Below, piece after piece: positions 1,964-35,671 of a DNA stretch of 64,000 nucleotides (the stretch's first letter is position 1; every line of letters begins with the position of its first letter). A model generated the notes under the pieces. That model was given only the letters and a program-made list of their open reading frames with translations, had not been told where the DNA came from and made no database searches. The DNA is from Nostoc sp. FACHB-280 (lineage in GTDB: Bacteria > Cyanobacteriota > Cyanobacteriia > Cyanobacteriales > Nostocaceae). The stretch covers positions 1 to 64,000 of the forward strand of contig NZ_JACJSD010000015.1 of the NCBI RefSeq assembly GCF_014697615.1. Direction: 5' to 3'. The position numbers and the translations under genes are program-made.

Positions 1964-2000
1964 TGCCGTTATCCCTTTATTAATTAACTACGGCTTATTA

Positions 2001-2014
2001 ATAGGTTTACCGTA
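2001..2014 (-). promoter_or_regulatory. candidate sulfur-response element upstream of cysA
   Basis: On the gene's strand this reads TACGGTAAACCTAT, 38-51 bases upstream of the cysA start. Its first nine bases are the same as in the elements at 9731-9747, 20716-20733 and 35360-35377. The direct-repeat second half seen at 20716 and 35360 is not conserved here. Regulatory function is inferred from recurrence and position. Confidence 0.45.
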
Positions 2015-2196
2015 TTGTATCTAACATATACCATTGCTAACAAATTAAATACAAGTAAATTTTGTCAATATATCTTTAAGTAGAAGTAAACATATATATC
2101 AATAATTCCTAACAAGAAATTGACAAAAACCCTACTATCAAGTGTGACAATAGGGTTCAAAAAGCAAATATTCACTGATACTCAAGCTAAGTATTG

Positions 2197-2718
2197 TTAG
2201 TAGTTTGTTAAGCCTGGTGGCGTAATGGCTTTTTCTAAATCAGCACCTTGAAAGTTTGCACCGACAATACTTGTACCTGTCAGATTAGCCTTCTCCAAAT
2301 CGGCATCAAATAAGTTAGCATTATCTAAATTTGCGCCTATAATGCTTGCCTTACCTAAATCTGCACCTTGAAGATTAGCACCTTTGAGATTAGTTCCTTG
2401 TAAATTAGCTCTTTCTAAATCAACACCTTGTAAATTTGCATTTTCTAAATTCGCATTTTGCAGATTAGTATCTTTTAGTGATGCTCCTATCAGGTTACAA
2501 CCAACACATTCATTCGTTGTCAGCAAATGTCTCACATTTTCTGCAACAGTTTTTACAGGTGCAGGTGTAGCTTCTGTTGTAGCTTCTGTTGTTACAGGTG
2601 GTGTTAATGATTGAGCCTTAGCACTGTGTTGGTCAAATAGCGAAAATCCTGCCACTAATACTACAAGCAATACAGTTATTAAGCAGTTAGTTAGCGTCTT
2701 AAAAATTGATTTCTTCAT
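2197..2718 (-). CDS. secreted pentapeptide-repeat protein
   Basis: 173 residues. An N-terminal signal peptide (KTLTNCLITVLLVVLVAGF, then AKA) is followed by a Thr/Ala/Pro linker and, from about residue 78 to 165, tandem A(N/D)LxX pentapeptides such as ANLQG, ADLEK and ANLEN. These fold as a right-handed quadrilateral beta-helix. A CVGC pair lies just before the repeats, a common arrangement in cyanobacterial periplasmic or lumenal pentapeptide proteins. No enzymatic function can be assigned. It is a single gene, divergent from the ABC exporter operon at 2990. Confidence 0.85.
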   Translation of the reverse strand: MKKSIFKTLTNCLITVLLVVLVAGFSLFDQHSAKAQSLTPPVTTEATTEATPAPVKTVAENVRHLLTTNECVGCNLIGASLKDTNLQNANLENANLQGVDLERANLQGTNLKGANLQGADLGKASIIGANLDNANLFDADLEKANLTGTSIVGANFQGADLEKAITPPGLTNY

Positions 2719-2989
2719 GCTACCTCTTTTGGTAAATGCTGAGTTTTGGTTTTACGTTTTGAGTTCTTTAGTTGATATTTACTGTAGATAAGTTAATTTT
2801 GAAAAACAAATACTATTTTTGTTCAAATCTATAAATTCCAGTGATAGCTGCTGTAGTGCTGAGGCATGAAGAAGGCAGGAGGAAAAATAGATTTATTTCT
2901 CCTGAGCATAAGGAATTGCTCAAAGGTTTAGTGAAATGTGAAAAGTTTTGTAGTATATATGTAATATGTTTTTGAGGAGTTCATCGGTA

Positions 2990-3967
2990 ATGACAGCCGT
3001 AGAACTGGAAAATTTACGCAAGACCTTTACCTTAACGCAAGGTTGGGCTAGAAACCGCAGACAGACTGAGATTGTGGCGGTGGATGACATTACGCTGAGT
3101 GTTCCCGATGGTCAAGCGATCGCATTTATTGGGCCAAATGGTGCAGGCAAGTCTACAACCATTAAAATGCTTACGGGGATTTTATATCCCACATCTGGGC
3201 AAGCTACTTTGTTGGGGTTGAATCCTTGGAAAAAGCGGCGGGAATTGGCTTATCAGATTGGGGTAGTATTTGGACAGCGATCGCAACTTTGGTATCACTT
3301 ACCGCCCCGCGACACCTTAGAATTATTAGCACGTATCTATAACCTAGACCACAAAGAATATATCAAACGCCGTGATGTCCTAGTAGAGCGTTTTGACCTC
3401 AAACCCTTTTGGCATACCCCAGTGCGTAAACTATCATTGGGACAAAGAATGCGAGCCGAAGTAGCAGCCAGTTTACTCCACAAACCAAGATTATTATTTC
3501 TGGATGAGCCGACTATTGGTCTAGATGTCATCGCCCGTCAAGAATTACGCGACCTCATCCGTGAATGGAATCGCACTGAAGGTATCACTGTATTTCTCAC
3601 CAGCCATGATGCAGGCGACATTGAACGAGTCGCCCAACGAGTCGTAGTTATTAACCACGGTAAAGTCGTCCTGGATGACAAAATTTCCGCTATGCGTCGA
3701 GACTACCTCGGCTCAAAAATCCTCAGTGTGAGATTTCATGACGCAGCCCCGCAAATTATCCTTCCTGGTGTTACTGAACTCAAAAAAACCGAATACGCCC
3801 TCAAATTAGAAGTTAATACTCGCATTACCCCCATTGAAGCGGTGATGAGTCACATTCTACAAGCAGGTTCCGTGGCGGATATTGCCATTGAAGATCCACC
3901 ACTAGAAGAAGTGATTGCTCACATTTACTCCCAAACCGCCCCCAGCCCCAAAACGCAAACAAGATGA
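2990..3967 (+). CDS. ABC-2 type exporter ATP-binding protein
   Basis: 325 residues from the ATG at 2990, chosen because GAGGAG (2974-2979) is ten bases upstream; an in-frame ATG at 2966 lacks such a site. It contains Walker A GPNGAGKST, signature LSLGQRMR, Walker B LLFLDEPTIGLD and the switch SHD, followed by an extended C-terminal domain seen in NatA-like exporter ATPases. The stop overlaps the next gene's start by four bases (ATGA), so it is translationally coupled to two membrane proteins. This ATPase plus two-permease organisation matches DUF990 (ABC2_membrane_6) exporters, which include the cyanobacterial viologen exporter. The substrate here is unknown. Confidence 0.85.
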   Translation: MTAVELENLRKTFTLTQGWARNRRQTEIVAVDDITLSVPDGQAIAFIGPNGAGKSTTIKMLTGILYPTSGQATLLGLNPWKKRRELAYQIGVVFGQRSQLWYHLPPRDTLELLARIYNLDHKEYIKRRDVLVERFDLKPFWHTPVRKLSLGQRMRAEVAASLLHKPRLLFLDEPTIGLDVIARQELRDLIREWNRTEGITVFLTSHDAGDIERVAQRVVVINHGKVVLDDKISAMRRDYLGSKILSVRFHDAAPQIILPGVTELKKTEYALKLEVNTRITPIEAVMSHILQAGSVADIAIEDPPLEEVIAHIYSQTAPSPKTQTR

Positions 3968-4761
3968 ATAAAATCACCAAATATATCTGGATAGCTTGGA
4001 CTTCAGCCCGTTCTAACCTGGCTTACATCACAGAAGTAGCTTCAAGGGCTGTTTTTTTGTTTGTCATTCTCTATATCTTTCTGCAATTGTGGCGTGTGAC
4101 TTATGCAGAGACTAACGCTCAACAGTTAGGAGACTTCACCTTAACGCAGATGCTGTGGTATTTGGGTATAACCGAATCAATTGTGCTTTCTGCCCCCACA
4201 ATAGCCCAAGAAGTAGACGAAGATGTCCGCACAGGTGCTTTAGCAGTGCAATTAATTCGTCCTTTATCTTACCCTTTGTATCGTTTGTGGACGAGTTTAG
4301 GAGAGCGTACAGTTCGCTTTGGGCTAAATCTCTCTGTCTCCATCGCATTAGCTTTACTATTCGTTGGCTTGATTCCCTTAAATTTGTTAGGTATTTTGTT
4401 ATTTTTATTATCCCTACCGTTAGCCTTTGTCCTCGATTTTTTAGCAACATTTTTGGTAGGTTTGGGAGCTTTTTGGTTAGAAAACACCACAGGTTTGTTG
4501 CTGATTTATTCCCGCATCAACATGATTTTAGGCGGAATGCTCATCCCTTTAGATTTATTCCCCGAACAATGGCAAGTAATTTTAAGAAATCTACCTTTTG
4601 CCAGCATTATCTATGGCCCGGCGCGTTTGTTTGTCCAACCAGACTTAAGCTTTGCCGGACAATTACTCATTCGCCAAACATTAGCTATAGGTGTACTCAG
4701 TTTATTAGTAACTTTCGTTTACAGCACAGCCGTTAAACGCATCCATGCCAATGGAGGATAA
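3964..4761 (+). CDS. ABC-2 (DUF990-type) exporter permease, first subunit
   Basis: 265 residues with about six membrane segments (for example AVFLFVILYIFLQLW, LSVSIALALLFVGLIPL and the leucine-rich GILLFLLSLPLAFVLDFLA). The N-terminal pattern of a short cytoplasmic helix carrying YIWIAWTSARSNLAYITE is typical of ABC2_membrane_6 permeases. It overlaps the ATPase gene and is followed nine bases later by a second permease of the same length, so the pair probably forms a heterodimeric channel. Substrate is not predictable from sequence. Confidence 0.8.
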   Translation: MNKITKYIWIAWTSARSNLAYITEVASRAVFLFVILYIFLQLWRVTYAETNAQQLGDFTLTQMLWYLGITESIVLSAPTIAQEVDEDVRTGALAVQLIRPLSYPLYRLWTSLGERTVRFGLNLSVSIALALLFVGLIPLNLLGILLFLLSLPLAFVLDFLATFLVGLGAFWLENTTGLLLIYSRINMILGGMLIPLDLFPEQWQVILRNLPFASIIYGPARLFVQPDLSFAGQLLIRQTLAIGVLSLLVTFVYSTAVKRIHANGG

Positions 4762-4770
4762 TTAATCATC

Positions 4771-5568
4771 ATGTTTAGGCGTATAGTTTCATACTTGCAA
4801 TTAGCTGCGGCTTATGTGCGGCTGAACTTCAAAGCCCATTTAGAATACCGTGGTGCATTTATTACCCAAATCGTAGCAATGGTGTTAAATAACTTAGTTT
4901 GGGTAACATTTTGGGTCTTATTTTTTCAACGCTTTCCTGTATTGCGCGGATGGAATGTGCAAGATGTAATTACTTTGTGGGCTTTAGCCGCCACTGGTTT
5001 TGGTTTAGCGCATTCTATCTGTGGGAATGCTTTACGAGTTAGTAGTTTAATTGTCCGGGGACAGTTAGATGTGTGGATGCTCTATCCACGTACTCTCTTA
5101 TCTCACTTATTGTTGGGACAGATGAGTGCTACAGCTTGGGGTGATTTGTTATTTGGCTATGGCGTGTACTTGTTTTTTATCAAACCAGATATCCTACATT
5201 TGGCTATGTTCACAGGATTAACAGTTTCATCTGCTGGGGTATACATCGGTTTTAATGTGTTGGTAGGCAGTTTAAGCTTTTACATTGGCAATTCTGAAGG
5301 ATTAACACAGCAGTGGCGAAATGCAATGCTGACCTTCTGCACTTATCCAGCAACTTTGTTTGAAGGCTGGGTGAAGTTACTGTTATACACTTTAATTCCG
5401 GCGGGATTTGTCACTTATTTACCTATCGAAGCACTCAGAACTTTATCTTTAACGCATACATTACTAGCTTTAGCAGGAGCCATTGCTGTATTGTGCGTGG
5501 GTGCAGGTGCATTTTATCTAGGTCTGCGGCGTTATACTTCCGGTAATTTAATGGAAATGCGTGGTTGA
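4771..5568 (+). CDS. ABC-2 (DUF990-type) exporter permease, second subunit
   Basis: 265 residues, multi-spanning, with the family-typical N-terminus (LQLAAAYVRLNFKAHLEYRG followed by a first membrane segment) and the conserved middle IVRGQLDVWMLYPRTLL. It is nine bases downstream of its partner permease and is the last gene of the three-gene operon; a perfect 15-bp hairpin starts at its stop codon. It probably pairs with the preceding subunit. In Synechocystis a similar ATPase plus two DUF990 permeases exports viologens, but that set is not in one operon as far as I recall, so I do not transfer the name. Confidence 0.8.
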   Translation: MFRRIVSYLQLAAAYVRLNFKAHLEYRGAFITQIVAMVLNNLVWVTFWVLFFQRFPVLRGWNVQDVITLWALAATGFGLAHSICGNALRVSSLIVRGQLDVWMLYPRTLLSHLLLGQMSATAWGDLLFGYGVYLFFIKPDILHLAMFTGLTVSSAGVYIGFNVLVGSLSFYIGNSEGLTQQWRNAMLTFCTYPATLFEGWVKLLLYTLIPAGFVTYLPIEALRTLSLTHTLLALAGAIAVLCVGAGAFYLGLRRYTSGNLMEMRG

Positions 5569-5606
5569 AAAGTAAAAAGTCAGACAATCTTTGACTTTTT
5601 ACTTTT
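5568..5606 (+). terminator. strong hairpin after the ABC exporter operon
   Basis: Perfect 15-bp inverted repeat: AAAAGTAAAAAGTCA at 5568-5582 and TGACTTTTTACTTTT at 5592-5606, with a nine-base loop. The arms end in A- and T-runs, so it could act as a bidirectional terminator. It begins inside the last permease stop codon. Confidence 0.65.
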
Positions 5607-7433: not shown

Positions 7434-8495
7434 TTAAGCTCTATTTCTCACCGCATCAGGTGTAATTGCTGCATATTCTTGAGCAGTTAATGTGGCTTCT
7501 TGAATATTGACTTGTTTCGGTACAACTTTCAGTTGATATAAAAGGTCAGCAATCTTTTGTTGAGCATTGATTACTTCTTCTGTAATTGGTCGCATATCAA
7601 ACTTTCTTCTGGTCAGTGCTAACTCCATAGTATCTACATCAGTCTTAACCTTGGGAGCCAGAATTTCGGCGGCTGCACGTCTATTTTTATTCGCCCACTG
7701 ACCTACTTGATAATATTCTTCTAAAATCGCTTTGAGCAAATCAGCGTTATTAGTAGCAAAATCTCTAGATGCTAAGTAATAACTTCCTGGTGTATTAATT
7801 CCTTGTGCATTTCGTAAAATCCGAATGCTACCTTCTCTTTGAAGCTTAATCAAATTCGGATCGCCTTCTACAAAAGCATCTACTGTCTTATTCAGAAATG
7901 CTGCACGTCCATCTGCAATTGGTAAGTTTACAGATTCAACATCACTAATTTTTAGTCCGGCTTTTTCTAATGCTTTCACCACAAAATAGGTCTGAGCTGT
8001 ACCTCTGGAATAAGCAATTTTTTTACCTTTAATATCTGCCAATGTTTGAATAGGCGAATCTTTTAATACAACAATTGCCGAACCTTCTCCTGTTCCTGGT
8101 GGAGTGTTAACTAAATAAATCAAATTTGTGCCAGCAGCTTGAGCAAAAATTGGTGGTGTTTCACCTGTTGGCCCCAAGTCAATACTACCTACATTTAAAG
8201 CTTCTAATAGTGGTGGCCCAGAGACAAACTGAGACCAAGTAACATTAATTCCTTGCGGATTTAGACGTTTTTCGATCGCACCTTTTTCATGAGTCAAATC
8301 TCCTGAAACTTGATAGCCAATCCGCACAACTTTATTACTAGTGCTTTTAGCGTTAGTTGTGCTGACATTACTACTACCTGTACTAGCATTATTTTTGCCA
8401 CAACTAACTAAAGTCGTAAACGAAACTAACCCATAAACAGCATAAAGTAAGTCTCGTCTGGATATTCCATAATTACCAATTTGGACTTTTTTCAT
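7434..8495 (-). CDS. sulfonate ABC transporter substrate-binding lipoprotein (SsuA-like)
   Basis: 353 residues. The N-terminus has an RRD twin-arginine-like pair (residues 13-15), a hydrophobic stretch and a lipobox ending at Cys32 (LVSCG), indicating a membrane-anchored periplasmic binding protein. The mature part shows the SsuA/TauA/NMT1 fold signatures: RIGYQVSGDL, LEALNVGSIDLGPTGETPPIFAQAAG, and PIQTLADIKGKKIAYSRGTA. It is about 150 bases downstream of a TauD-type dioxygenase on the same strand, so import and desulfonation are likely coupled. The binding gene has no permease or ATPase of its own here. Its substrate could be any aliphatic sulfonate. Confidence 0.85.
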   Translation of the reverse strand: MKKVQIGNYGISRRDLLYAVYGLVSFTTLVSCGKNNASTGSSNVSTTNAKSTSNKVVRIGYQVSGDLTHEKGAIEKRLNPQGINVTWSQFVSGPPLLEALNVGSIDLGPTGETPPIFAQAAGTNLIYLVNTPPGTGEGSAIVVLKDSPIQTLADIKGKKIAYSRGTAQTYFVVKALEKAGLKISDVESVNLPIADGRAAFLNKTVDAFVEGDPNLIKLQREGSIRILRNAQGINTPGSYYLASRDFATNNADLLKAILEEYYQVGQWANKNRRAAAEILAPKVKTDVDTMELALTRRKFDMRPITEEVINAQQKIADLLYQLKVVPKQVNIQEATLTAQEYAAITPDAVRNRA

Positions 8496-8643: not shown

Positions 8644-9606
8644 TTAAGAAAGTACTGCTTCTACTTTTTTGGACTCGACTTTTTGTTGGAGAACGTTAGG
8701 GACTTCTGCACTGAAGGCTTCACCATGAACTACTTCTGAACGGAAACCATCAACTCCTACAGGAACATCACCAGTAATAGTTGTCCGATAAAGTAACCGT
8801 TCAACATCCAAATGATCCAAATCTTGGGGAGCTAAATGCACAGTGGCGCGATTGTCCCAAAAGGCGATATCACCGTTATTCCAACGGAAGCGAGTGGTGT
8901 AAGCTGGCTTGGTGATTTGGTTGAAAAATAGTTCTAGCAACAACTTACTTTCTTGTGGTGATACACCAACAATATGTGAAGTGAAGCCAGGGTTGACAAA
9001 CAACGCACGTTCACCAGTTTCAGGATGAACTCTGACGACTGGATGAATGGAAATCAGTGGGTTAACAGCAATTCGCTCGGCAAATTTGCCATTTTCAGGT
9101 TGATAGCCACCTCCATTGAAGCGATGTTCCGCTTTTAAGGTATCGGCTAAAGCACGTATAGGTGCTGATAGTCCTTCATAGGCGGCTACAAGATTACTCC
9201 ATTGGGTATCGCCACCAAAACTAGGAACATTAACTGCACGTAAAACAGAGGCGGCTGGTGGGTTAATTGCTGCTGTTACATCTGTGTGCCAAGGGCCTCC
9301 ACTGCGAAAACCATACTGTCTTTCATACAGCTTCCGGTCTACAGGTTTAAGTTGGGGAAATCCTGGTACTGGTTCAACTTCTCCTAAAGGATGAGCAAAG
9401 GTGACTTCGCCAAAACGAGATGTAAACTCGACTTGAGCCGCATGATCAATATTTTGACCCCGAAAGAATAATACTTTCCATTTCAATAAGGCTTTGCGAA
9501 TCTCTTTAACTTGCTCATCAGACAAAGGACGTTTGAGGTCTACGTTGTTGATTTCTGCACCGATGAAACCAGCTACTTGTTTGACTTCTATATGTTTGTA
9601 GCCCAT
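8644..9606 (-). CDS. tauD: TauD/TfdA-family Fe(II)/2-oxoglutarate dioxygenase
   Basis: 320 residues, close to the family length. TauD hydroxylates the carbon next to the sulfonate using Fe(II), O2 and 2-oxoglutarate, releasing sulfite. The metal triad is visible: His107 and Asp109 in WHTDVT and His257 in NRATVHLAP, with the 2-oxoglutarate-binding arginine at about Arg274 (YRTTITGD). A second paralogue with the same architecture lies at 10237-11205. It is transcribed ahead of an SsuA-like binding protein, and a candidate sulfur-response element lies 125 bases before the start. Taurine is the classic substrate, but other sulfonates or alkyl sulfates fit as well. Confidence 0.88.
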   Translation of the reverse strand: MGYKHIEVKQVAGFIGAEINNVDLKRPLSDEQVKEIRKALLKWKVLFFRGQNIDHAAQVEFTSRFGEVTFAHPLGEVEPVPGFPQLKPVDRKLYERQYGFRSGGPWHTDVTAAINPPAASVLRAVNVPSFGGDTQWSNLVAAYEGLSAPIRALADTLKAEHRFNGGGYQPENGKFAERIAVNPLISIHPVVRVHPETGERALFVNPGFTSHIVGVSPQESKLLLELFFNQITKPAYTTRFRWNNGDIAFWDNRATVHLAPQDLDHLDVERLLYRTTITGDVPVGVDGFRSEVVHGEAFSAEVPNVLQQKVESKKVEAVLS

Positions 9607-9730
9607 GAAAATTCTCCAGAGTTTGAATGTTGAATGATGTTCACACTCCCTTGCTATCTATGGAATTTTGCTGATAGGTAATCAGAAAATTTTGATATTG
9701 GAAGCATAACTAAATATATTATACGTTATT

Positions 9731-9747
9731 CCGATAGATTTACCGTA
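9731..9747 (-). promoter_or_regulatory. candidate sulfur-response element upstream of tauD-like gene
   Basis: On the minus strand it reads TACGGTAAATCTATCGG. The leading TACGGTAAATC is the same as at 20716-20733 and 35360-35377. It lies 125 bases upstream of the dioxygenase start. The rest of the 630-base gap 9607-10236 holds a dispersed repeat (9977-10008), a terminator for the incoming gene (10156-10186) and no supportable ORF. Confidence 0.5.
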
Positions 9748-12202: not shown

Positions 12203-13645
12203 TTAGCCGACTCCTGCTTTGGCTGGCTGTTGCCACACGGCATTGGCATACAGTGATGGCTCAAAGTCTGGTGCAACATTGTCACTGGTAATTCGGGCTT
12301 CGTGTAGTGACCAGTCAGCAAAGAATAAATCGTGGCTAATGCGTGAGACTATTGCTGGCACATCCCGCCGGATGCTGGGGACATCGCCGATGGGTAGACC
12401 AAAACTGACGAAGCCAGCCGGATTAAACACATGAATATCTTTGAGGTAAGAAGCCGTACCAGGGACTTTTTCTAGATATTCATGAGCAGAACCAAGGTAA
12501 GGATAGGTGCTAAGTTGCTCGTTGCGCTGGTCGGCTGGCGGTTCGTAGCGATCGCGCCACAGGACAATATGATGAGCAAAATCAGCTAGTTCTGTCCGTC
12601 TGGTGGGATCGACAAAGTAGCCAGTCCCTGCGATCGCAAAATCGAACTCAAACACATCATCATTCACTTGCGCCACGATGCGATCGCCTTGAGCCTGAGC
12701 TTCTTGCCACGGTGCAGATAAATGCAGATGGAAATTAGCAAAGGCTGTGACTCGCTCAATCGCATCCGGTGGTGGTGTTGAGCCAACTTGATTAAACCGC
12801 CAAGCTTGAAACCACCGCGCTGCATCAGGTAATTGCCAATAGTTACTGTAAGCTCCAGGATAACCCCGCACACGAATCACAGGCAAAGAAGCGATTTGCG
12901 ATCGGCGTGCAAATAAATGTACTTCCTTCGCACCTGATTCTAGTGCCACACCAGCCGCATCAAAAGCCGAAGCCGCCGCACCTAAAACAGCTACCTTTTT
13001 ACCACGCAACGCCTCAAAGTCAATTGCTTCTGAGGTATGTGCATACAAATTGCGCGGCAGAGATGTTAATGCAGAGGGGATGTTTGCCCCACCAGTACCA
13101 GCGACACCATTAGCAAAGATAATCTTTCGTGTGGTTTCTATTTGGGTGACACCATTCACTTCCAGATGTAGGCGAAAGAAACCTGCGGCTGGTTCAACTC
13201 GCACCAACTTTGTCTGATACCGAACTGGAATGTCTAAGAAATGCCGATACCAACTAAGATACTCCGCCCATAATACTCTGGGTATGCGGTCAATTGCGGC
13301 GTATGCTTCAGTTCCGTGTCGCGCCTCGTACCAAGCCTGAAACGACAGTTCGGGAATTCCCAGTTCTGGCCCTGGGAGATTTTTCGGTGTGCGTAGCTTT
13401 TTCATCCGCGCTCGCGTCAGCCATACACCTGCTTTAGCTTCGTTTTCAGCTGCATCAATAATTGTCACGCGGCCAATACCTGCACGCCGCAGCGCAAATG
13501 CAAAAGTACTACCACTGCCACTACCACCCACTATGGTGACGTTGTGGTCAATCTCTGGATGATCAGGTATCCAGTTTTCGGGATCGGGGCCGATGAGGCG
13601 CAACGCTTCGCGTGCGGCAAAATCAGCGTCAGTCGTTGTTGTCAT
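12203..13645 (-). CDS. FAD/NAD(P)-dependent oxidoreductase (flavin monooxygenase-like)
   Basis: 480 residues with two Rossmann folds: an N-terminal FAD-binding GGSGSGS (from residue 40) and a second dinucleotide-binding GAAASAF (from residue 222). Between them lies the ATG-like ANGVAG motif, and a C-terminal GTGYFVD motif is present. This layout is that of class B flavin monooxygenases and related lysine/ornithine N-hydroxylase-type enzymes. It is first in the run with the CmcJ-type hydroxylase and the second TauD-like dioxygenase. Oxygenation of an organosulfur compound is an inference from context only. Confidence 0.75.
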   Translation of the reverse strand: MTTTTDADFAAREALRLIGPDPENWIPDHPEIDHNVTIVGGSGSGSTFAFALRRAGIGRVTIIDAAENEAKAGVWLTRARMKKLRTPKNLPGPELGIPELSFQAWYEARHGTEAYAAIDRIPRVLWAEYLSWYRHFLDIPVRYQTKLVRVEPAAGFFRLHLEVNGVTQIETTRKIIFANGVAGTGGANIPSALTSLPRNLYAHTSEAIDFEALRGKKVAVLGAAASAFDAAGVALESGAKEVHLFARRSQIASLPVIRVRGYPGAYSNYWQLPDAARWFQAWRFNQVGSTPPPDAIERVTAFANFHLHLSAPWQEAQAQGDRIVAQVNDDVFEFDFAIAGTGYFVDPTRRTELADFAHHIVLWRDRYEPPADQRNEQLSTYPYLGSAHEYLEKVPGTASYLKDIHVFNPAGFVSFGLPIGDVPSIRRDVPAIVSRISHDLFFADWSLHEARITSDNVAPDFEPSLYANAVWQQPAKAGVG

Positions 13646-13965
13646 ATCGGTCTTTCAGGATGAAACGAGGTTTAAGCGAGATTCGTACTGGAAGAAAAAT
13701 AATCGTTTGTCTGATGCCAAGATATGGATCAATTACCTAATGTTTTCTTACAACCAAAGTTTAGTTGCAGACATTTACTAATTACTACGCCAAGAGTGAG
13801 ATAAGTCCCAAGGATTTCGTGTTGTGAGTGATTGACCACAAATTTTTGTAGTAATTTACTCAGCAGATACAGCTTACATCTGTTGATACCAAAAATATGT
13901 ACTGACGATCACAATCTTTGTGACCCTAATAATTAGTTTATCTAATATTAAGTTTTGCAAACAGC
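13646..13965. other. intergenic region upstream of the flavin monooxygenase operon
   Basis: 320 bases with no supportable gene. At 13884-13901 the minus strand reads TACATATTTTTGGTATCA, a weak (11 of 18) match to the element at 25714-25731, so it may hold a degenerate version of the shared site. Confidence 0.3.
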
Positions 13966-14187
13966 TTATGGTTCATGAAACCAGGTAAAAGAAAGGCTTT
14001 TTAGCTTACTAAAAAATCCCACTTTCTTTGTTTTTGGTGGAGGAAAACATTGAGCATCAGGAGATATTTGTGGTGGTAATTCCCAAATATCGTGGCTTTT
14101 ATATCCTTCCCGTTCTGCTAAAGGATAATGTTGATTAATTAATCCAAATTCCCCGTCTAATAATTCTCTTTCTATTTCGTGAAACAT
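13966..14187 (-). CDS. small hypothetical protein
   Basis: A 73-residue reading frame with an ATG and a weak GGTGA ribosome-binding sequence, lying between the acyl-CoA-dehydrogenase-like gene and the flavin monooxygenase operon. It is polar, with PLAEREGYKSHDIWELPP and a PPPKTKK stretch, and no signal peptide or membrane segment. I do not recognise it. It could be the remnant of a larger protein or a spurious ORF. Confidence 0.35.
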   Translation of the reverse strand: MFHEIERELLDGEFGLINQHYPLAEREGYKSHDIWELPPQISPDAQCFPPPKTKKVGFFSKLKSLSFTWFHEP

Positions 14188-14303
14188 ATTTTCACCATGA
14201 ATAAAATTTTGAGAATCTGTACTTTGCTAGATAAGATTCATATCCTATTTCTGCGTTCCTACTCCCTATCTACACAAGCAAATTCGGCAAGAAAACCACA
14301 TTT

Positions 14304-18419: not shown

Positions 18420-19505
18420 TTAAGCTACGGTTGCTGTTTGTCTTTCTAGTCGTTGGACTTCTTGACGCACTAAAGGAATTACATCTCGACCATAAGCGAT
18501 CGCATCTTCCACTGGGTCAAAACCACGAATCAAGAGTGTTGTGACCCCAGCTTTGTAGTAATCAAATAATGATTCTGCTACTTGTTCTGGAGTCCCAACC
18601 AAGGCTGTAGTATTACCCCGCGCACCCGTAGCAGCTGCAATTGGTGTCCATAAACGCTTATCGTGGATTTCCCTTTCTTTGGCAAAGTCCAACAAACGCA
18701 AGGAACCCACAGCTTCAGGTACTGCCGGAGCCTGACCACGAATTTCATTAATCCGCGAGAGAATATAATGGGCTTTTTCCCAGGCCTTTGCTTCGGTTTC
18801 GCCTAAAATTGGACGCAAGGAAATACTGAAACGTAAATCTTTTCCTGGCGGTGCTGCGGCTTTGACTTCAGCAATGCGTTGTTTAATTGCAGCTATGGGT
18901 TCTCCCCAAAACGCATAAACATTACTGTGCTTTGCACCTACACCCACAGCTGCACCAGAAGCACCACCAAAATATATAGGAATATGTGGTTGCTGTAAGG
19001 GTTTAACATCCGAAAATGCGCCTTTGAATTGGTAAAACTCGCCTTCATAATCGAAAGGTTCTTGGCTTGTCCATACTCGTCGCACAACATCAAGATATTC
19101 ATCAGTTCGACGATAGCGAGTATCATGGTCAAGCCAGTCACCATCACGCTGTTGTTCAGCATCACTACCACCAGTAATAATATGTACGGCAACACGACCA
19201 TTGCTAAAGTGATCTAATGTAGCTAATTTACGTGCGGCTAAAGAAGGAGACACAAAACCCGGTCTATGAGCCAGTAAAAACTTGAGTCGTTCTGTTGCAG
19301 CCGCCACATAACTAACAACATTAAAGCCATCTGGCCCTGTGGAACTATAACCAACTAGCACCCTGTCAAAGCCCCCATCTTCATGGACTTTGGCAAAGTT
19401 ACGCACATAGTTTAAATCTATGCTTCCCCCCGTAATTGATACGGTTGGGCTATGTAACTCTGACGCATTTCGCGTACCAATCATGCCAATAAATTCAACA
19501 GGCAT
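18420..19505 (-). CDS. ssuD: alkanesulfonate monooxygenase, SsuD-like (LLM flavin family)
   Basis: 361 residues in the bacterial-luciferase-like monooxygenase family. SsuD uses FMNH2 and O2 to turn alkanesulfonates into aldehyde plus sulfite. Family landmarks are FLLAHRPGFVSPSLAARKLA, the phosphate-binding IITGGSDAE, the DHDTRYRRTDEY segment and IPIYFGGASG. The gene is 55 bases downstream of an SsuA-like binding protein, the usual ssuA-ssuD pairing. The required flavin reductase (SsuE type) is not seen in this window. Start ATG at 19505 is preceded by GGAG. Confidence 0.85.
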   Translation of the reverse strand: MPVEFIGMIGTRNASELHSPTVSITGGSIDLNYVRNFAKVHEDGGFDRVLVGYSSTGPDGFNVVSYVAAATERLKFLLAHRPGFVSPSLAARKLATLDHFSNGRVAVHIITGGSDAEQQRDGDWLDHDTRYRRTDEYLDVVRRVWTSQEPFDYEGEFYQFKGAFSDVKPLQQPHIPIYFGGASGAAVGVGAKHSNVYAFWGEPIAAIKQRIAEVKAAAPPGKDLRFSISLRPILGETEAKAWEKAHYILSRINEIRGQAPAVPEAVGSLRLLDFAKEREIHDKRLWTPIAAATGARGNTTALVGTPEQVAESLFDYYKAGVTTLLIRGFDPVEDAIAYGRDVIPLVRQEVQRLERQTATVA

Positions 19506-19560: not shown

Positions 19561-20637
19561 TCACCTAGAAGCAGTAGTTCCCAAGGGACACACAGATGCA
19601 GCAATATCTACTTTTTGGGGAATAATTTTTTGTTCTAATAACCAATCAGCAGTTTTCTGGAGTTTGGCAACATCTTCACTGTTGGGAAATACGTAAGACT
19701 CTGGGCCGCGATTTTGAGTTACTTGTTTGGCTACTGCATCCGAAAGTTTTAATTCTTTAACTAAAAAATCTGATGCGGCATTAGTATTTTTATTTAGCCA
19801 GTCACCATCTTCACTTAAAGCAGTCAGCGCAGCTTTAACTGCTACAGGGTTTTCTTTCGCTGCATCACCACGCACAACCATAATGCCGTAGGTAGGTGCA
19901 GGGTGTGTAGTAGTAATTCTTCTGGCTTTATGTTCTAATTCGGCAATAGAAATATAAGGTTCCCACACAGCCCAACCATCAACAGAGCCTTGATATAACG
20001 CAGGTGCAGCGTCATTTGGTGATAGATAAACTCGCTGGACTTTCTCTTTAGGAATCTTTTCTTTTTCCAAAACTTTTAATAGTAAATATTCGCCTGCGCC
20101 ACCTTGATTCACTGCAACTTTTTTACCGACTAAATCAGCAGGTTTACGAATAGTAGAATCACCACGAACAACGATCGCACTGCTCAAAGAATCGGGACTC
20201 GGACGCTGTACAGAACCAATACAAAGAGGTTGTCCCGCCGCAATTCCAGAGATGGTAGGAATATCACCACACCCGCCAATATCGGCTCGATTACCATTAA
20301 GAGAACTTAATAGCGTAGCACAACGATCAAATGGGCCACTCCATTCAACTTTAATATTTTGTGCTGTTAACTGACGCTCTAACTCACCTCTTTGACGGGC
20401 TAGGGGAATAATCCCACCTTTTTGGTAGCCCAAGCGAATGACATTGTTTTTCTCTGTTGTTTTGGTAGCAACAGTATTTGAATTTGAGGTTGTATCGGAC
20501 TTAGCTGAGACATTAGTAGCTGTTTGTTGGCTGCAACTAGAAGCGATTAGTCCTAAAAAAGAAGCTGCGATCGCTAATATCTTACCAGCAGAATATTTTT
20601 GTGTATCCGCAAAGCGGGGGTCTTGGCAATTGTTCAC
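19561..20637 (-). CDS. ssuA: aliphatic sulfonate ABC transporter substrate-binding lipoprotein (SsuA-like)
   Basis: 358 residues. A long leader ends in a lipobox with Cys35 (IASSCS). The mature part has VIRLGYQKGGIIPLARQRGELE, the RADIGGCGDIPTISGIAAGQP region, and TIRKPADLVGKKVAVNQGGAG, all typical of SsuA/TauA-type binding proteins. It is the first gene of a run with ssuD-like, cysteine-dioxygenase-like, aldolase-like, a second SsuA-like and an SfnB-like gene. A candidate sulfur-response element lies about 80-96 bases before the start. Of the four SsuA-like genes here, this one has the most canonical context for alkanesulfonate uptake. Confidence 0.85.
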   Translation of the reverse strand: MNNCQDPRFADTQKYSAGKILAIAASFLGLIASSCSQQTATNVSAKSDTTSNSNTVATKTTEKNNVIRLGYQKGGIIPLARQRGELERQLTAQNIKVEWSGPFDRCATLLSSLNGNRADIGGCGDIPTISGIAAGQPLCIGSVQRPSPDSLSSAIVVRGDSTIRKPADLVGKKVAVNQGGAGEYLLLKVLEKEKIPKEKVQRVYLSPNDAAPALYQGSVDGWAVWEPYISIAELEHKARRITTTHPAPTYGIMVVRGDAAKENPVAVKAALTALSEDGDWLNKNTNAASDFLVKELKLSDAVAKQVTQNRGPESYVFPNSEDVAKLQKTADWLLEQKIIPQKVDIAASVCPLGTTASR

Positions 20638-20715
20638 TACAATTTACTCCTTGATGTCAATTTTTAGGAGTTTAAGCAGCCATTATTGATGATGATAGCG
20701 ACTTAAATACATTAA

Positions 20716-20733
20716 ATCGACCGATTTACCGTA
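20716..20733 (-). promoter_or_regulatory. candidate sulfur-response element upstream of ssuA-like gene
   Basis: The minus strand reads TACGGTAAATCGGTCGAT, an imperfect direct repeat (CGGTAAAT then CGGTCGAT). It differs by one base from the element at 35360-35377 and lies 79-96 bases before the ssuA-like start. Confidence 0.55.
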
Positions 20734-22640: not shown

Positions 22641-23834
22641 TTAAAGTCTTAGACCAGCCTGCTTCAATAGTGGTAGAACGCGCTTACCAAATAAATCTAA
22701 ATCCGGCTCGAAATCGTAAAAAGCTATCTGGAAACCATCAACACCAGCTTTATTGAGTTGCACAAGTTGTTCGGTGATTTGTTCTGGCGAACCAATGAGT
22801 TGCACATTACCACCGATCGCACTACCAACGCTATGACGCAGATTTCCCTTTTTATGCCCTCTCCAAGCGTGTGCATCGCTGCTAACAAGGGAACGTCCCG
22901 CAATTGATTCATGATCAGCCTGATCAACAATGGCTTGGGCATATTCTTCTGCCTCTTTTTCCGTTTCTCGCAAAACAATCAACGGATTTAGCAGCGTGCG
23001 GACTTGTCTACCTTGAGCGATCGCAGATTGTTTCACCCGTTCTGTATGGGCGGGTAAGGATGACAAAGCACTGTCTATATCTCCGCCAGCCGGACTGGTA
23101 ATAAACACAATATCAGAATGGCGGCCTGCAAACTCGATACCCGCATCTGAACCAGTGGCGTTAACTAAAACAGGACGACCATAAAGCGGACGAGGGCTAA
23201 TGTAAGCATCTTTGAACTGCCAAGAGCTTTTTTGACTCTGGTAAGAAAAGTTCTCGGTTTCTGACCAAAGTCTCTTTAAGACAGTGACAAACTCATCCGC
23301 CATTTCATAGCGGCGATCGTGTTCGATTTGACTCCAACCGAACAATTCATGCTCATAAGCCCGGTGTCCGGTGACAACGTTAATTCCCCACCGACCTTTG
23401 GAAATGTGGTCTAATGTCGCCCCAAATTTAGCTAAATGAATGGGATGCCAAGGCCCATAAAGAACGTGAATAGTAGAAATTAAGAGAATCCGCGAAGTCA
23501 TCCCAGCTAGAGAAGCTGTTGCAATGAAGGCATCTAAACCCGCTTCCGTGCGAGTCGGCCCCTGTCCACCCTTGGGTTGCCATGTAGAATAACCAAAAAC
23601 GAGGTCAAATCCCAATTCCTCAGCCTTTTGGGTCAACTTGGCATTATAGTCAAACGACCAATCGGTAGTGCGAGGTAAATATGATGAACTCCAGCCACCG
23701 TGATGAATTGGTAAGAATAACCCTAGTAATACAGGCTGTTTCAGAGCTTGGGATAATGGACTATCAGGATAGTCTGTGGGAGAGGCGATCGCTTTTATCT
23801 CCGTTCTGACAGCAGTAGTATCAATTACGCTCAT
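22641..23834 (-). CDS. LLM-class FMN-dependent monooxygenase (SfnG/SsuD-like)
   Basis: 397 residues. The barrel landmarks are LGLFLPIHHGGWSSSY, TTDWSFDYNAKLTQKAEELGFD (shared in style with SfnG), the phosphate-binding WGINVVTGHRA, EHDRRYEMADEF and RPVLVNATGSDAG. SfnG converts dimethyl sulfone to methanesulfinate with FMNH2. Relative to SsuD this protein carries an extra N-terminal leader of about 35 residues. It is transcribed before MetI and after an SfnB/DszC-like enzyme, so the pair could form a sulfone-to-sulfite route. The exact substrate is not defined by sequence. Confidence 0.75.
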   Translation of the reverse strand: MSVIDTTAVRTEIKAIASPTDYPDSPLSQALKQPVLLGLFLPIHHGGWSSSYLPRTTDWSFDYNAKLTQKAEELGFDLVFGYSTWQPKGGQGPTRTEAGLDAFIATASLAGMTSRILLISTIHVLYGPWHPIHLAKFGATLDHISKGRWGINVVTGHRAYEHELFGWSQIEHDRRYEMADEFVTVLKRLWSETENFSYQSQKSSWQFKDAYISPRPLYGRPVLVNATGSDAGIEFAGRHSDIVFITSPAGGDIDSALSSLPAHTERVKQSAIAQGRQVRTLLNPLIVLRETEKEAEEYAQAIVDQADHESIAGRSLVSSDAHAWRGHKKGNLRHSVGSAIGGNVQLIGSPEQITEQLVQLNKAGVDGFQIAFYDFEPDLDLFGKRVLPLLKQAGLRL

Positions 23835-24142: not shown

Positions 24143-25381
24143 CTAAAAGAATCCTCTCTGCGGCAACGGTGTACCATTTATCTCATAGTCGCCAATCGCA
24201 CGCGCCTTAAAGTGATTGGGATTATGTGAGGATAAAGTACGGGCATTGCGCCAGTGACGGTCAAAGTTTGAGCTTTTCTTGGTTGTGGAAGCCCCGCCGA
24301 CTTCAAATAGTAAGGTGGCTGAACGTAACGCTAAATCATCAACAATTAATTTGGCTTTGGCTGCATTCAAAGAAGTTTCTAACGCTACAGCCGTCTCTGC
24401 TTCTTCACCTTGGGCTTTAGCCGCAGGCAGGCGATCGAGTCCGTCGGCGGCGGCTAAAACGATCGCTTCTGCGGCAAAGGCATTGGCCGCAATTTGTCCG
24501 ACGGTTTGCTGTAAGATGGGGTCTTCTGCTGCTTGCTCGGATACAGCATGGTAAAAAGTCCGAGGACGTTTATGAACGAGGTTTGTGGCATCACGCAGCA
24601 CGCTACGAATAATGCCAGCGTTGATTGCCGTCAAAAATAATTGCGGGATGATATTGTATGGCAAATTGTCTTTGTCTGTGTCTGTCTCAAAAAATACTTC
24701 ACTTCTCTCAACACGGACATTAGTAAAGTTAGTTGTTCCTGTGCCTGTAAGCCTTTGACCAAAGCCATCCCAGTCATCTATAAGCTCAATTCCATCGCGG
24801 TTTGTCGGGATGAGAATAAACGCCGTAGTGCCATCTGGTACTAGTACACGCACAAAAATCAAGTCTGCATAAAGGCTGCCAGTGCTGTAATACTTCGTGC
24901 CATTCAGACGATAACCGTCGCCATCGGGTGTTAATTTTGTATTCACAACTTGACCACCGCCAGCCCGTTTAACTTCTAATTCGGTGGAAGCGAGGCCAAT
25001 AATTGCCCCATCAACTACTTCCTTTAGCCAGCGACGATTTCTTTCGGTGCGTTCTGAGCGCAAAATTCGCTCTGTGACAGAAAAATGATTCCGCACAATG
25101 TGAGCTACGTTCGGGTCAGCATCGCCTAACTTAATCACCACCTCAAATAATTCCCGCGCCGTGCTACCACCGCCACCTTCAGCAACGGGGATTCGTAATG
25201 CACCCAACCGAGAACGCCGGATTAATTCAACTACATCAAAAGGTAAGATGCGATCGCGGTCGCGTTCACTTGCTCCCAGAGCTATATGATCAAACAACTG
25301 CTGGAGTTCCGGTGAGTTAGTTCTGACTGGAGCCGAAAACTGGATTGTTGTATCTGCAACTTTTTCTAGACTTTTAATCAT
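24143..25381 (-). CDS. SfnB/DszC-like flavin monooxygenase (acyl-CoA dehydrogenase fold)
   Basis: 412 residues from the ATG at 25381, chosen because GGAG lies nine bases before it; an in-frame start at 25429 lacks one. It has the acyl-CoA dehydrogenase fold with LGALRIPVAEGGGG, GTKYYSTGSLYADLIFV, DDWDGFGQRLTGTGTTNF and a C-terminal NARTLSSHNP, a set of motifs typical of SfnB and DszC. These use reduced flavin and O2 to oxygenate sulfur compounds. It leads the unit with the SfnG-like enzyme, MetI and a MetQ. A candidate sulfur-response element lies about 333-350 bases upstream. Confidence 0.8.
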   Translation of the reverse strand: MIKSLEKVADTTIQFSAPVRTNSPELQQLFDHIALGASERDRDRILPFDVVELIRRSRLGALRIPVAEGGGGSTARELFEVVIKLGDADPNVAHIVRNHFSVTERILRSERTERNRRWLKEVVDGAIIGLASTELEVKRAGGGQVVNTKLTPDGDGYRLNGTKYYSTGSLYADLIFVRVLVPDGTTAFILIPTNRDGIELIDDWDGFGQRLTGTGTTNFTNVRVERSEVFFETDTDKDNLPYNIIPQLFLTAINAGIIRSVLRDATNLVHKRPRTFYHAVSEQAAEDPILQQTVGQIAANAFAAEAIVLAAADGLDRLPAAKAQGEEAETAVALETSLNAAKAKLIVDDLALRSATLLFEVGGASTTKKSSNFDRHWRNARTLSSHNPNHFKARAIGDYEINGTPLPQRGFF

Positions 25382-25506
25382 TATTTTTATCTCCGATGTA
25401 GAAAATCTATGTTGGCGAGTTGTAAGCAACTAGTACAGGTCGGCGTAAATAAACTTTCATCGCCCTTTTGCTGATTCGCCTAGAACACCAATTCAGTAAT
25501 CTTGAA

Positions 25507-25596: not shown

Positions 25597-25713
25597 AGAG
25601 AAAGTTGCACACGGCGTTATATATGGAGAGAATGTCAAGAATGCTTTTATATCTGCGGCGATTACCTCTGGTAACAAATTTAAGTTAAGCTAAACACCAA
25701 GAAAGAACTAAAA

Positions 25714-25731
25714 ATCTACCAAAATACCGTA
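25714..25731 (-). promoter_or_regulatory. candidate sulfur-response element, divergent copy
   Basis: The minus strand reads TACGGTATTTTGGTAGAT, with the outer TACGGTA and GGTAGAT the same as the 35360-35377 element. It lies upstream of the SfnB-like gene (start 25381), at the unusually long distance of about 333 bases. Confidence 0.45.
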
Positions 25732-28796: not shown

Positions 28797-28798
28797 GA

Positions 28799-31785: not shown

Positions 31786-31792
31786 TATTGAT

Positions 31793-32878: not shown

Positions 32879-33248
32879 AAATTAACCCTCCTTTGTGTCA
32901 CATTATTCCAATGCAAATCTTGGGGTTTTTGCAAGTATTATGAACTAATATTAGGCATAGAAAAATATCTTTTCTCTATGCCAAAAATATCGTTAAAGCT
33001 GGTTGAAACCTGTCTGCAAATTAGTTCTATTAGAAAGGATATAATATATCTATTCTCTAAATAGTTGTTGTGTTCCTTGCGACTAAATTTGAAATTTTTA
33101 CATATTAGTATTTAACCCAAAATTTTTCTGCAATTAAACAAAGAAAAGATTACTAATTATGGAAATAATTAGTAATACTTAAAGACGTTATGAATACAGC
33201 TTCAATAAATCACAAAGTAGTTTTATACTACTTTTGATTTAATATTTA
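32879..33248. other. AT-rich intergenic region
   Basis: 370 bases between the ferritin-like gene stop and the SsuA-like gene start. Apart from a small hairpin at 33214-33234, I see only AT-rich sequence without a supportable ORF. It probably contains the promoter of the SsuA-like gene. Confidence 0.4.
33214..33234 (-). terminator. small hairpin after the ferritin-like gene
   Basis: AAAGTAG (33214-33220) pairs with CTACTTT (33228-33234), with a seven-base loop, 15 bases past the stop codon. The arm is AT-rich and the following U-run is short, so termination is uncertain. Confidence 0.35.
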
Positions 33249-34064
33249 TTAATCATTAACACTCACAAGTTTGGGTAGCTTAGATACAGGTATATCTAAG
33301 AAATAAGCAAGTACCTCTCGCCGCCAAGTGTCATAAAGTACTGGCAAATTATCAATTTCAACTCCAATAGCTTTTTGACTCAATTGCCAATGATTGCGAA
33401 GATAAGAATTGCGCCGACGTTGACCTTCTTCATCAGCTTCTAAAACTTGGGCAATTAAATCTTCTTTCTCGGCTTGTGAAGCCTGATCAAATTTACGTTG
33501 CCACCAATCAACCACACCTAAACGATGAACGGCTTCATCTGGTAAGATTTTTTCTGCTGCATATTTGGCAGAGTCTGGGTCATTAATTTTGCTAGTACGG
33601 CTATTGATAAATAACAAAGCCACAATATGCAGTTCATAATGTAATTCAAATGCTAAAAAGCCTTGCCAATTACGAATAGGTAAATCACCCATATAATCCC
33701 AATGTTTCTGCACTTGCTTTTGGATATCTTCAATGGGGTCATGTCCCGATATTGCCTGCGCTCTTAAACGAGTGTTTTGAGCGTGTGCGCCATCATCTCC
33801 TATTTGTCTGCTCAAAAATAGTTGTAATTCTGGGTCTGGAAAGGAGTCAATTATCTTAGCGCAGACTTGCACAATAAATAAATCATGGGCTGCACCAGCT
33901 ACACGAAAACGATAAAAATTCTCTCTTTCTTCATCAGTTTCCGGTGGTCTTGGTTCAACTAATCGCTTTTTGGGAATGTGCGGTGCGTGTTTATCAACTA
34001 ATTTATCGAAGATTTCCAGTTCTAAATCTGTAGTCCAAGCTGGACGAGTTAAGATTGCAGTCAT
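33249..34064 (-). CDS. ferritin-like di-iron domain protein, possible oxygenase
   Basis: 271 residues, all-helical and soluble, with no signal peptide. Residues that could form a di-iron centre are visible in order: Asp91 with His94 (DGAH), Glu140, His142, Glu144 and His146 in FELHYELH, and Glu177 with His180 (DEAVH). The ExxH spacing resembles ferritin-like oxygenases such as the phenylacetyl-CoA epoxidase subunits. I do not know a named family for it. It sits in the sulfur island between an SfnG-like monooxygenase (126 bases upstream) and an SsuA-like gene, so an oxidative role on an organosulfur compound is possible but unproven. Confidence 0.6.
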   Translation of the reverse strand: MTAILTRPAWTTDLELEIFDKLVDKHAPHIPKKRLVEPRPPETDEERENFYRFRVAGAAHDLFIVQVCAKIIDSFPDPELQLFLSRQIGDDGAHAQNTRLRAQAISGHDPIEDIQKQVQKHWDYMGDLPIRNWQGFLAFELHYELHIVALLFINSRTSKINDPDSAKYAAEKILPDEAVHRLGVVDWWQRKFDQASQAEKEDLIAQVLEADEEGQRRRNSYLRNHWQLSQKAIGVEIDNLPVLYDTWRREVLAYFLDIPVSKLPKLVSVND

Positions 34065-34189
34065 AAAGTTACCTTTGGGTAATGAGAATTAGGAAAAGAT
34101 GTTTGGATTCAATCTAAAATTCTTAATACCAATTCACTAAAATTACGAAACAGATGTCAATCCCCAAAACCTTGATTAATCAGGCTTTG

Positions 34190-35302
34190 TTAATTGCGAA
34201 TTGAGAATTGCGAATTGGTATTAGCCCCTATTTTGGCGTTGGCGATCGCTTCACTTTCTCCTGTTATCGCTCTTACTCTTGGTATAATCTCCGCAGCAAA
34301 ACGCTCCATTTCTGTAGCGAAAGGTTGGAATTGCAGCATAAACGTATCAATTCCTACTTTGGTAAATTCAGCAATGCGCTGGGCTACGGTTTCATAACTC
34401 CCAACCAAACCAGCCGCAGTCCCGCCATTACTCGCCACACCTGGATATTTCGCCATGTTTTTGAACATAACCACTTCGGAATCTACGCCTTTGAGTAGTT
34501 CTGTGCGATCGTCCTGGGCGAGTACCATTGCTCTGAGGTTTTGATATTCTGCTTCGGCTTCTGCGTCTGTTGGTCGAGCAATGACAAAGGCTGACATTGC
34601 AAAGCCAATAGGTTGAGAGCGAGATTGAGTTTTTTGCCGCACTTGAGCAATTGTTTCGCGGATAACTTCTATCGGACGACCATTGAGAAAGAATGTATGC
34701 GCTTGTTTTGCAGCTAGTTCTTGCGCTGGTTCTGACTCTCCCCCGACATACACACGCGGATGGGGTTTAGCAATAGGTGGAGGATTCAGCTTCAAATCAT
34801 TGATGTGAAAATAGTCGCCGTGGAAGTTAACGTTTTCCCCACTCCACAAAGCTTTGACAACTCTTATCCATTCATCAGAATAGCGATAACGTTCGTCGTG
34901 AGACAAAAAATTGATCCCTGGTTTTTCCATTTCTGGTCTAAACCAAGCACTCACTAAGTTAATTGCAAAACGTCCTTGGCTAATTGCATCAATTCCTAAA
35001 GCCATCTTGGCTAAGACGGCGGGATGAAATAGTAATGGCTTAACAGCTGCAATAATCTCAATAGAACTTGTCGCTTCTGCGAGTGCTGCGGCGGCTGTCC
35101 AGGTTTCTAATTGGTCAAGTTGTTGGTTCCTGGGATTGATGATATGTTGCGCTATTAAAGTTGTGGTAAATCCGCACCTTTCAGCCAACCGAATTAAACT
35201 CTTAGCTCGTGAGTAACTAGCATCACGAGGTTCAAGAGGATGGTTCATCACGCCGCAGTTGCCGTAAACGGGAATCCATATCCCATAGCGTGGTTCAGAC
35301 AT
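34190..35302 (-). CDS. LLM-class FMN monooxygenase (SfnG-like)
   Basis: 370 residues. It begins SEPRYGIWIPVYGN and shows LETWTAAAALAEATSSIEII, FHPAVLAKMALGIDAISQGR, the phosphate-binding INLVSAWF, SHDERYRYSDEWIRVVKALWSG and PHPRVYVGGESEPAQELA. The order and spacing match SfnG (dimethyl sulfone monooxygenase) and related SsuD-type enzymes more closely than DszA. A divergently transcribed near-copy lies at 35672-36727. A candidate sulfur-response element lies between the two. A reduced-flavin supply from elsewhere in the genome is needed. Confidence 0.82.
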   Translation of the reverse strand: MSEPRYGIWIPVYGNCGVMNHPLEPRDASYSRAKSLIRLAERCGFTTTLIAQHIINPRNQQLDQLETWTAAAALAEATSSIEIIAAVKPLLFHPAVLAKMALGIDAISQGRFAINLVSAWFRPEMEKPGINFLSHDERYRYSDEWIRVVKALWSGENVNFHGDYFHINDLKLNPPPIAKPHPRVYVGGESEPAQELAAKQAHTFFLNGRPIEVIRETIAQVRQKTQSRSQPIGFAMSAFVIARPTDAEAEAEYQNLRAMVLAQDDRTELLKGVDSEVVMFKNMAKYPGVASNGGTAAGLVGSYETVAQRIAEFTKVGIDTFMLQFQPFATEMERFAAEIIPRVRAITGESEAIANAKIGANTNSQFSIRN

Positions 35303-35671
35303 AGCTTTCTAGAACCTTTGTAGTCGGCACTAAAACTCAAGTTTTGTACCCAGATATCCTACGGTAAATCGGTAGATTTATAGTAGTATACTATGAGGTT
35401 TGCATATATGAGCATAAAAAACAAGGGGATATTGAGATTTTTCTCTCCTAGGGCTTATGTACAAAAGTTGTTTGTTGAGGCTGGTTCAGGTTGAGTTTAA
35501 GAGTTGAGGGGTAAGTAGTTCACTAACCCAAAATTGCTGTGTAGACCTAGCAGGGGGCAAGGGAGAAAATATTTAGACCCTTACATACATTCACCCTGAC
35601 TCAAACCCTTGATTTTGCTGATTAATACCTCAGCCTTATTTCTGTTGTGTTTGTTGAACTTGGAGGTAAAA
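35303..35671. other. divergent promoter region between two SfnG-like genes
   Basis: 369 bases separating two divergent paralogues. It contains the direct-repeat element at 35360-35377, followed at once by an AT-rich TTATAGTAGTATACTATGA stretch that could serve as a promoter. No ORF with a ribosome-binding site is seen. Confidence 0.5.
35360..35377 (+). promoter_or_regulatory. candidate sulfur-response element (best copy)
   Basis: Reads TACGGTAAATCGGTAGAT on the plus strand, a direct repeat of CGGTARAT. It lies 58-75 bases upstream of the minus-strand SfnG-like start and about 295 bases before the plus-strand one. Its orientation follows the plus-strand gene, while the other four copies follow minus-strand genes. 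Confidence 0.6.

Follow-up and report, generated by a model that had tools for sequence, protein, structure and literature searches.

Shared sites upstream of cysA and four organosulfur units

We analysed a stretch of 64,000 nucleotides from Nostoc sp. FACHB-280 (hereafter the window), in which cysA and four organosulfur units with genes of the tau, ssu and sfn types lie behind copies of one short element. A preliminary description had reported five near-identical 18-bp strings upstream of these genes, and all five were confirmed, on the minus strand at 2001, 9731, 20716 and 25714 and on the plus strand at 35360. Alignment of sites showed that the unit is a 26-bp inverted repeat, TACGGTAAATC-N4-GATTTACCGTA, or about 34 bp counting its AT-rich (AAA/TTT) flanks. 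We refer to it below as the operator; its probable regulator is a CymR-like Rrf2 protein encoded elsewhere in the genome (G, C and L numbers are our handles for genomes, contigs and loci).

The scoring matrix was built from 59 sites in 10 genomes of the genus, with sites inside open reading frames (ORFs) excluded. Left arms had been chosen by the search pattern, and symmetry was therefore judged on right-arm positions outside it: the eight such positions matched the mirrored left arm at a mean of 5.3 of 8 over the 59 sites. Single-orientation counts over the same sites showed the same mirror symmetry, and the consensus of 104 rows (52 sites in both orientations) was an inverted repeat with variable spacers. 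The symmetric matrix held 33 bits of information. The reading of the unit as 18 bp with a CGGTARAT direct repeat was rejected on these mirrored arms and variable spacers; the look of a repeat comes from the left arm together with a 4-base spacer whose letters are GGTA in the sites at 35360 and 25714 and GGTC in that at 20716. Four of the 59 matrix sites come from gaps between cysE and rrf2, and the counts at rrf2 given below were for that reason repeated without these four rows. For genome searches we used a profile of 38 positions, R1, made from 52 of 55 sites remaining after a 24-bit cut, with the rrf2-gap rows deliberately excluded; its E-values are rough, and its match counts take in both strands.

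With a symmetric matrix of 55 rows free of window sequences, the five sites took the five highest scores in the window (43.0, 36.2, 30.1, 27.0 and 23.9 bits) and the next-best place reached 3.4 bits; ten Markov shuffles of the window, scored with the full matrix, gave no place above 8.2 bits. The cysA, tauD and sfnB sites, three of the five, had never been part of the training set. The 18-mer was unusual in the window (3 matches with up to 3 mismatches vs 0.01 expected; none of 100 shuffles reached 3). The 7-mer TACGGTA alone was not unusual, with 6 copies vs 4.04 expected and at least 6 in 19 of 100 shuffles, and its sixth copy (45645) lay inside an ORF. A weak sixth site had been suspected at 13884; there the best score across 13645-14303 was -13.1 with the window-free matrix, and the candidate was discarded.

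The sites differ in strength (Table 1). The one at 20708 gave the best profile match of the genome (E 5.3e-8), and that between the divergent sfnG-like genes is kept at the equivalent position in G004 and G007. The cysA operator has a degenerate right arm, TACGGTAAACC-TATT-AATAAGCCGTA, and its genome-wide profile E of 0.066 is not significant alone; sites before cysA were found again in G122, G067, G069 and G149. The sfnB operator (profile E 0.041) would not stand out genome-wide if taken singly, and was found too in G004 and G010.

Table 1 Operator sites and adjoining genes in the window
Feature	Position	Strand	Remarks
Operator before cysA	1989..2014	-	26.6 bits; 27.0 with window sequences left out
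Operator before tauD-ssuA	9722..9747	-	30.5 bits, not in training; profile E 3.1e-4
Operator before ssuA/LLM monooxygenase unit	20708..20733	-	44.1 bits; 43.0 with window sequences left out
Operator before sfnB-sfnG-metIQ unit	25706..25731	-	23.5 bits, not in training; weakest of the five
Operator between divergent sfnG-like genes	35360..35385	+	38.3 bits; 36.2 with window sequences left out; profile E 3.2e-6
cysA, sulfate ABC transporter ATPase	947..1963	-	TIGR00968, 428.9 bits, above cut-off
ssuA-like sulfonate-binding protein, downstream of tauD	7434..8495	-	TIGR01728, above cut-off
tauD-like dioxygenase	8644..9606	-	Best model taurine dioxygenase NF007104, below cut-off
Alkanesulfonate-monooxygenase-like LLM protein	18420..19505	-	Best model alkanesulfonate monooxygenase, below cut-off
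ssuA-like sulfonate-binding protein	19561..20637	-	TIGR01728, above cut-off
sfnG-like LLM monooxygenase	22641..23834	-	Best model TIGR04021, below cut-off
sfnB-like oxidoreductase	24143..25429	-	Best model TIGR04022 SfnB, below cut-off
sfnG-like monooxygenase, left divergent gene	34190..35302	-	Best model TIGR04021, below cut-off
sfnG-like monooxygenase, right divergent gene	35609..36727	+	Best model TIGR04021, below cut-off

Operator sites gather at sulfur genes

A scan of the whole genome, which the preliminary description had proposed, covered 7.64 Mb in 113 contigs. The 18-mer pattern matched 14 times, 3 of them inside ORFs (L011, L012, L014), vs 7 matches for the reversed pattern, none of which lay beside recognised sulfur genes and 4 of which were in ORFs. 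Profile R1 found 42 sites at E up to 0.70, 41 of them intergenic though the fetched loci were 75% coding, and all 34 sites at E ≤ 0.1 were intergenic by our own ORF calls. By our own sorting, about 20 of these 34 lay at sulfur genes or related binding-protein units. Fourteen were at genes of sulfur transport or assimilation, namely ssuA, ssuD (twice), an ssu cluster on C13 (two further sites in one gap), SDR-tauD, tauD, the sfnG pair, sfnB, cysA, metYX, a sulfate-binding protein, TauE/SafE and a CysR-like Crp gene; five were at solute-binding proteins of NMT1, phosphonate or SBP_bac_11 type, and one preceded a unit with an SsuD-like second gene. Weaker sites stood before sbp-cysTW (E 0.13) and a SUMF1-sulfatase pair (E 0.21). 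The sharing with cysA had been taken to point to a sulfur-limitation operator: the gathering at sulfur genes supports this idea, and sulfur limitation as the trigger is suggested by gene content.

In relatives, the 18-mer pattern (up to 2 mismatches) was found in 23 of 41 genomes, and 11 genomes of the genus gave 55 matches vs 9 for the reversed control. Sixty regions round pattern matches, a subset of all matches, were fetched; 72 of their 85 site rows lay outside ORFs and 13 inside, and many preceded ssu, sfn, tau and related genes. R1 matched in 37 of 148 genomes of the order (E ≤ 0.001) and in 27 of 244 genomes of a phylum sample (E ≤ 1e-4). Twenty distant regions, from 12 of the 37 R1-positive genomes of the order, were examined and had sites before cysE, cysA, cysK, metYX, sulfatase, ssu, CysR-like and rrf2 genes, among others. 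The operator also occurs in other families of the order.

The operator is coupled to an rrf2 gene between cysE and cysK

No regulator was recognised among all 50 ORFs of at least 150 amino acids in the window, where the sole helix-turn-helix match was DnaA. In G004, G008 and G009, the pattern matched the gap between cysE and a gene for a 151-amino-acid Rrf2 protein, followed by cysK. The corresponding candidate regulator gene of the window's genome, rrf2 between cysE and cysK at G000:C31:29315-29767, lies outside the window, and its locus has two operator sites. The flanking CysE and CysK are both above model cut-offs. The Rrf2 assignment came from Pfam PF02082 (119 bits) and NCBIfam rrf2_super (above cut-off), with the CymR model second; the best relatives in PDB were chain 4cic (a BadM/Rrf2 regulator), Bacillus subtilis CymR (2y75) and chain 3lwf. 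We name the protein CymR-like rather than CymR because it scored 93.7 bits with the CymR model NF047409, below the cut-off of 195.

To follow this coupling we used rrf2 loci of the best 80 of 107 relatives (named records, in which two strains appear twice). With the matrix freed of the four rrf2-promoter rows, the 300 bp upstream of rrf2 contained a site of at least 12 bits in 75 of the 80 loci and two such sites in 55, vs 40 of 1144 control windows with a site, some of these possibly genuine. The full matrix gave 78 loci with a site, 65 with two, and 42 of 1144 controls. A divergent cysE was present in 65 of the 80 loci and a following cysK also in 65, by a simple string test and with some loci ending at contig ends. 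R1, which contains no rrf2-promoter rows, found sites upstream of rrf2 in G093, G111, G128, G145 and G313 (another order).

In an Rrf2 tree of 55 rows, which leaves out L144 and some other copies, all 28 operator-bearing rows fell into one clade of 31, and none of the 24 rows outside it bore an operator; the result was unchanged with operator calls from the freed matrix. We looked for an operator upstream of the other Rrf2 copies of the window's genome and found none. A second Rrf2 type, again followed by cysK (L133, L143, L231, L371 and similar loci), has its own conserved upstream element, AAACYCCAGTGGAGAACCGGAGTATA: 36 of 41 operator-less upstream regions matched a 21-base seed (up to 6 mismatches), itself taken from one of the 41, vs 1 of 820 shuffles. 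The C-terminal sequence MYYI ended all 28 operator-bearing Rrf2 rows; 4cic also has MYYI, and 3lwf has MFYI.

Proposed regulon and rival explanations

Taken together, we consider that the element is probably (at roughly three chances in four) the operator of a cyanobacterial sulfur regulon, bound by a dimer of the CymR-like Rrf2 from an autoregulated cysE/rrf2-cysK locus. The operator distribution fits Rrf2 control of sulfur and cysteine genes. CysE makes O-acetylserine and CysK uses it; since Rrf2 is encoded beside both halves of this sensor and carries the MYYI tail, we infer the same logic as in Firmicutes CymR. The adjacent cysK and the tail are only suggestive of a CysK complex with O-acetylserine as the signal. 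In such a mechanism, the Rrf2 dimer with the cysteine synthase CysK would occupy the operators and repress as long as sulfur is ample. With a drop in sulfide and cysteine, O-acetylserine would rise and the Rrf2-CysK complex would fall apart, and this release would turn on metYX and the CysR-like regulator along with the uptake of sulfate and the uptake and cleavage of organosulfur compounds.

Several observations weigh against this proposal. In the genome-wide scan, the two operators at the rrf2 of this genome scored weakly (E 0.29 and 0.61), and the CymR model score is below its cut-off, as stated above. The site is missing at the gene in L366 of G235, in loci L284, L304, L311, L323 and L326 (5 of 80), and in 3 rows of the operator clade, whose support of 94/88 is below the starred level; the MYYI tail also occurs in operator-less paralogs. 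Sites are present without the operator-bearing rrf2 type in G012, G014 and G018 (6, 8 and 4 profile matches), and in G024 a 1-mismatch pattern match remains just upstream of a broken rrf2. By our own sorting, 14 of the 34 sites at E ≤ 0.1 are at genes with no known sulfur role, including FAD oxidoreductases, an aldo/keto reductase, SDR, GST, a methyltransferase, nifE and unknowns. A TAnnnT box was seen at both operator flanks (38% and 45% of 47 gene-oriented sites) and no -35 box was prominent; a -10 box at the operator flank was accordingly dropped as proof of a repressor, and because no directional -10/-35 signal fixes the promoter position, the architecture does not show repression.

The non-sulfur sites, like the AT-rich flanks, would suit a recurrent intergenic repeat or a promoter element that has no dedicated regulator. 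We regard this as extremely improbable, given the mirrored arms, the sites at related sulfur genes in other families and those in the rrf2 promoters of 75 of 80 loci.

A Crp-family, CysR-like regulator could instead bind the element, in which case rrf2 would merely be one target. This appears unlikely to us, though the CysR-like Crp gene (L187:3396-3986) is itself preceded by the operator and is often beside rrf2, and a CysR-like match (E ≤ 1e-30) was obtained in 25 of 25 operator genomes tested, several at about 50% identity and maybe other Crp proteins. Crp-family sites are shorter than this operator, whose arms extend to 11-13 bp on either side of the centre and are followed by AT flanks. 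Phyletic co-occurrence was dropped as proof of Rrf2 over CysR, as the two co-occur too tightly and only G006, G014, G024 and G039 inform. G024 keeps its CysR-like gene (71%), but its rrf2 is broken and the profile has no match there at E ≤ 0.001; G039 has a CysR-like gene (60%), no rrf2 of the operator clade and no profile matches; and in G006 the CysR-like gene is broken, rrf2 is intact and there are 16 profile matches. These three genomes favour Rrf2, and G014, which has the Crp gene and its 8 matches without an operator-clade rrf2, does not, so that the comparison is suggestive and not decisive. In G012 and G018, sites are present and neither rrf2 nor a CysR-like gene is clear. The interrupted genes lie at G006 C1:5049243-5049831 (CysR-like) and G024 C1:1048833-1049246 (rrf2).

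Both proteins might also act, with Rrf2 repressing at the operator and CysR activating from elsewhere; the sulfur response would then match the operator only in part. The rrf2 and CysR-like genes both carry the operator and are near each other in many of the genomes examined, as such dual control would have it; a second strongly conserved position was not visible around the 47 gene-oriented sites, however, and we give this arrangement a small chance, about one that would surprise us.

Rrf2 control of the operator can be carried one step further. It is somewhat favoured, at little better than even, that in many cyanobacteria of the order a CymR-like Rrf2/CysK/CysE sensor locus governs the sulfur economy and stands above the Crp-type CysR, and that the two Rrf2 copies acquired separate operators after duplication, the sulfur-wide TACGGTAAATC-N4-GATTTACCGTA and the AAACYCCAGTGGAGAACCGGAGTATA of an rrf2-cysK unit. 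With a 33-bit operator and a named candidate regulator, the proposed sulfur regulon can be tested in Nostocales and more widely; it would tie cyanobacteria to the cysteine-synthase sensing known in Firmicutes.

Other genes behind operator sites

The operator also assigns probable sulfur roles to unannotated genes. A 605-amino-acid protein (L015:8732-10549) behind a perfect 18-mer site had no match in Pfam (E ≤ 1e-8) or NCBIfam (E ≤ 1e-5); its relatives in G003, G004 and G007 are likewise accompanied by sites, and it is a candidate new sulfur gene. At L019:9066-12144, an 88-amino-acid ORF with a phosphonate-type binding protein and a nearby 417-amino-acid protein with a weak MamA match form units that are each behind an operator site, an arrangement that recurs in several genomes. 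Phosphatase-like (BLH) proteins at L182:3708-5476 and L178:3832-4341, for which sulfur roles are possible, are behind strong sites, one of them divergent from a chromate-transporter gene. The site at L018:249 (E 8.9e-5) is 846 bp before nifE (L018:1121-2539; TIGR01283 above cut-off), near a contig end, and may serve nifE or a short ORF in between.

Within the window, a 271-amino-acid ORF (33249-34064) between sfnG-like and ssuA-like genes had no Pfam or NCBIfam match and is conserved at 95-98% in G004 and G007. Farther on, dnaN adjoins dnaA at 51228-54188, so the window may hold a replication origin.

Comparison with known systems

IscR shares the Rrf2 fold, and the PDB matches of our protein included IscR chains. 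It has three cysteines as ligands for a [2Fe-2S] cluster. The Rrf2 of this genome has one cysteine, and 21 of the 28 operator-bearing rows have 0-1 (the other 7 have 2-4), and in this the protein differs from IscR. The NCBIfam score was 74.3 bits for IscR vs 93.7 for CymR, and the sites here are at sulfur uptake genes.

The CysR of Synechococcus belongs to the Crp family, and Pfam assigned the CysR-like gene of the window's genome to the same type. Like the system proposed here, CysR is cyanobacterial and governs sulfate-assimilation genes; the difference is that the CysR-like gene here is a probable target of the operator. In S. elongatus, CysR has been reported to control sulfate-assimilation genes as a global transcriptional regulator (PMC12016511), in an article whose main text does not contain the words motif, binding site or consensus. 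In the part of the open-licence literature reached, CysR was the sole cyanobacterial sulfur regulator named, and no operator was given for it. Titles and abstracts among the matches listed in the open-licence literature had no Rrf2/CymR sulfur regulon, nor this operator, in cyanobacteria; being confined to open-licence papers and the matches listed, this negative is weak evidence.

The closest parallel is CymR. According to the portions of the reports consulted, CymR of Bacillus, Staphylococcus and Listeria is a CysK-coupled Rrf2 repressor of cysteine and sulfur genes including ssu (PMC3828012, PMC2869319, PMC9239247); in Firmicutes, CymR acts as a repressor together with CysK, and the two come apart when O-acetylserine is high (PMC3828012, PMC2940859, PMC2869319). 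In Clostridium acetobutylicum, an rrf2 gene is followed by cysK (PMC3828012). The cyanobacterial rrf2 is also followed by cysK, and the C-terminal M[FY]YI tail is held in common. It differs in belonging to another phylum, in the cysE divergent to rrf2, and in probable targets that include sfn, tau and the CysR-like gene. The operator here is TACGGTAAATC-N4-GATTTACCGTA; the consulted portions of the CymR reports do not spell out the Firmicutes motif. CymR-type regulation as such is known from Firmicutes; what appears new is the phylum, together with the operator and the wide range of organosulfur targets.

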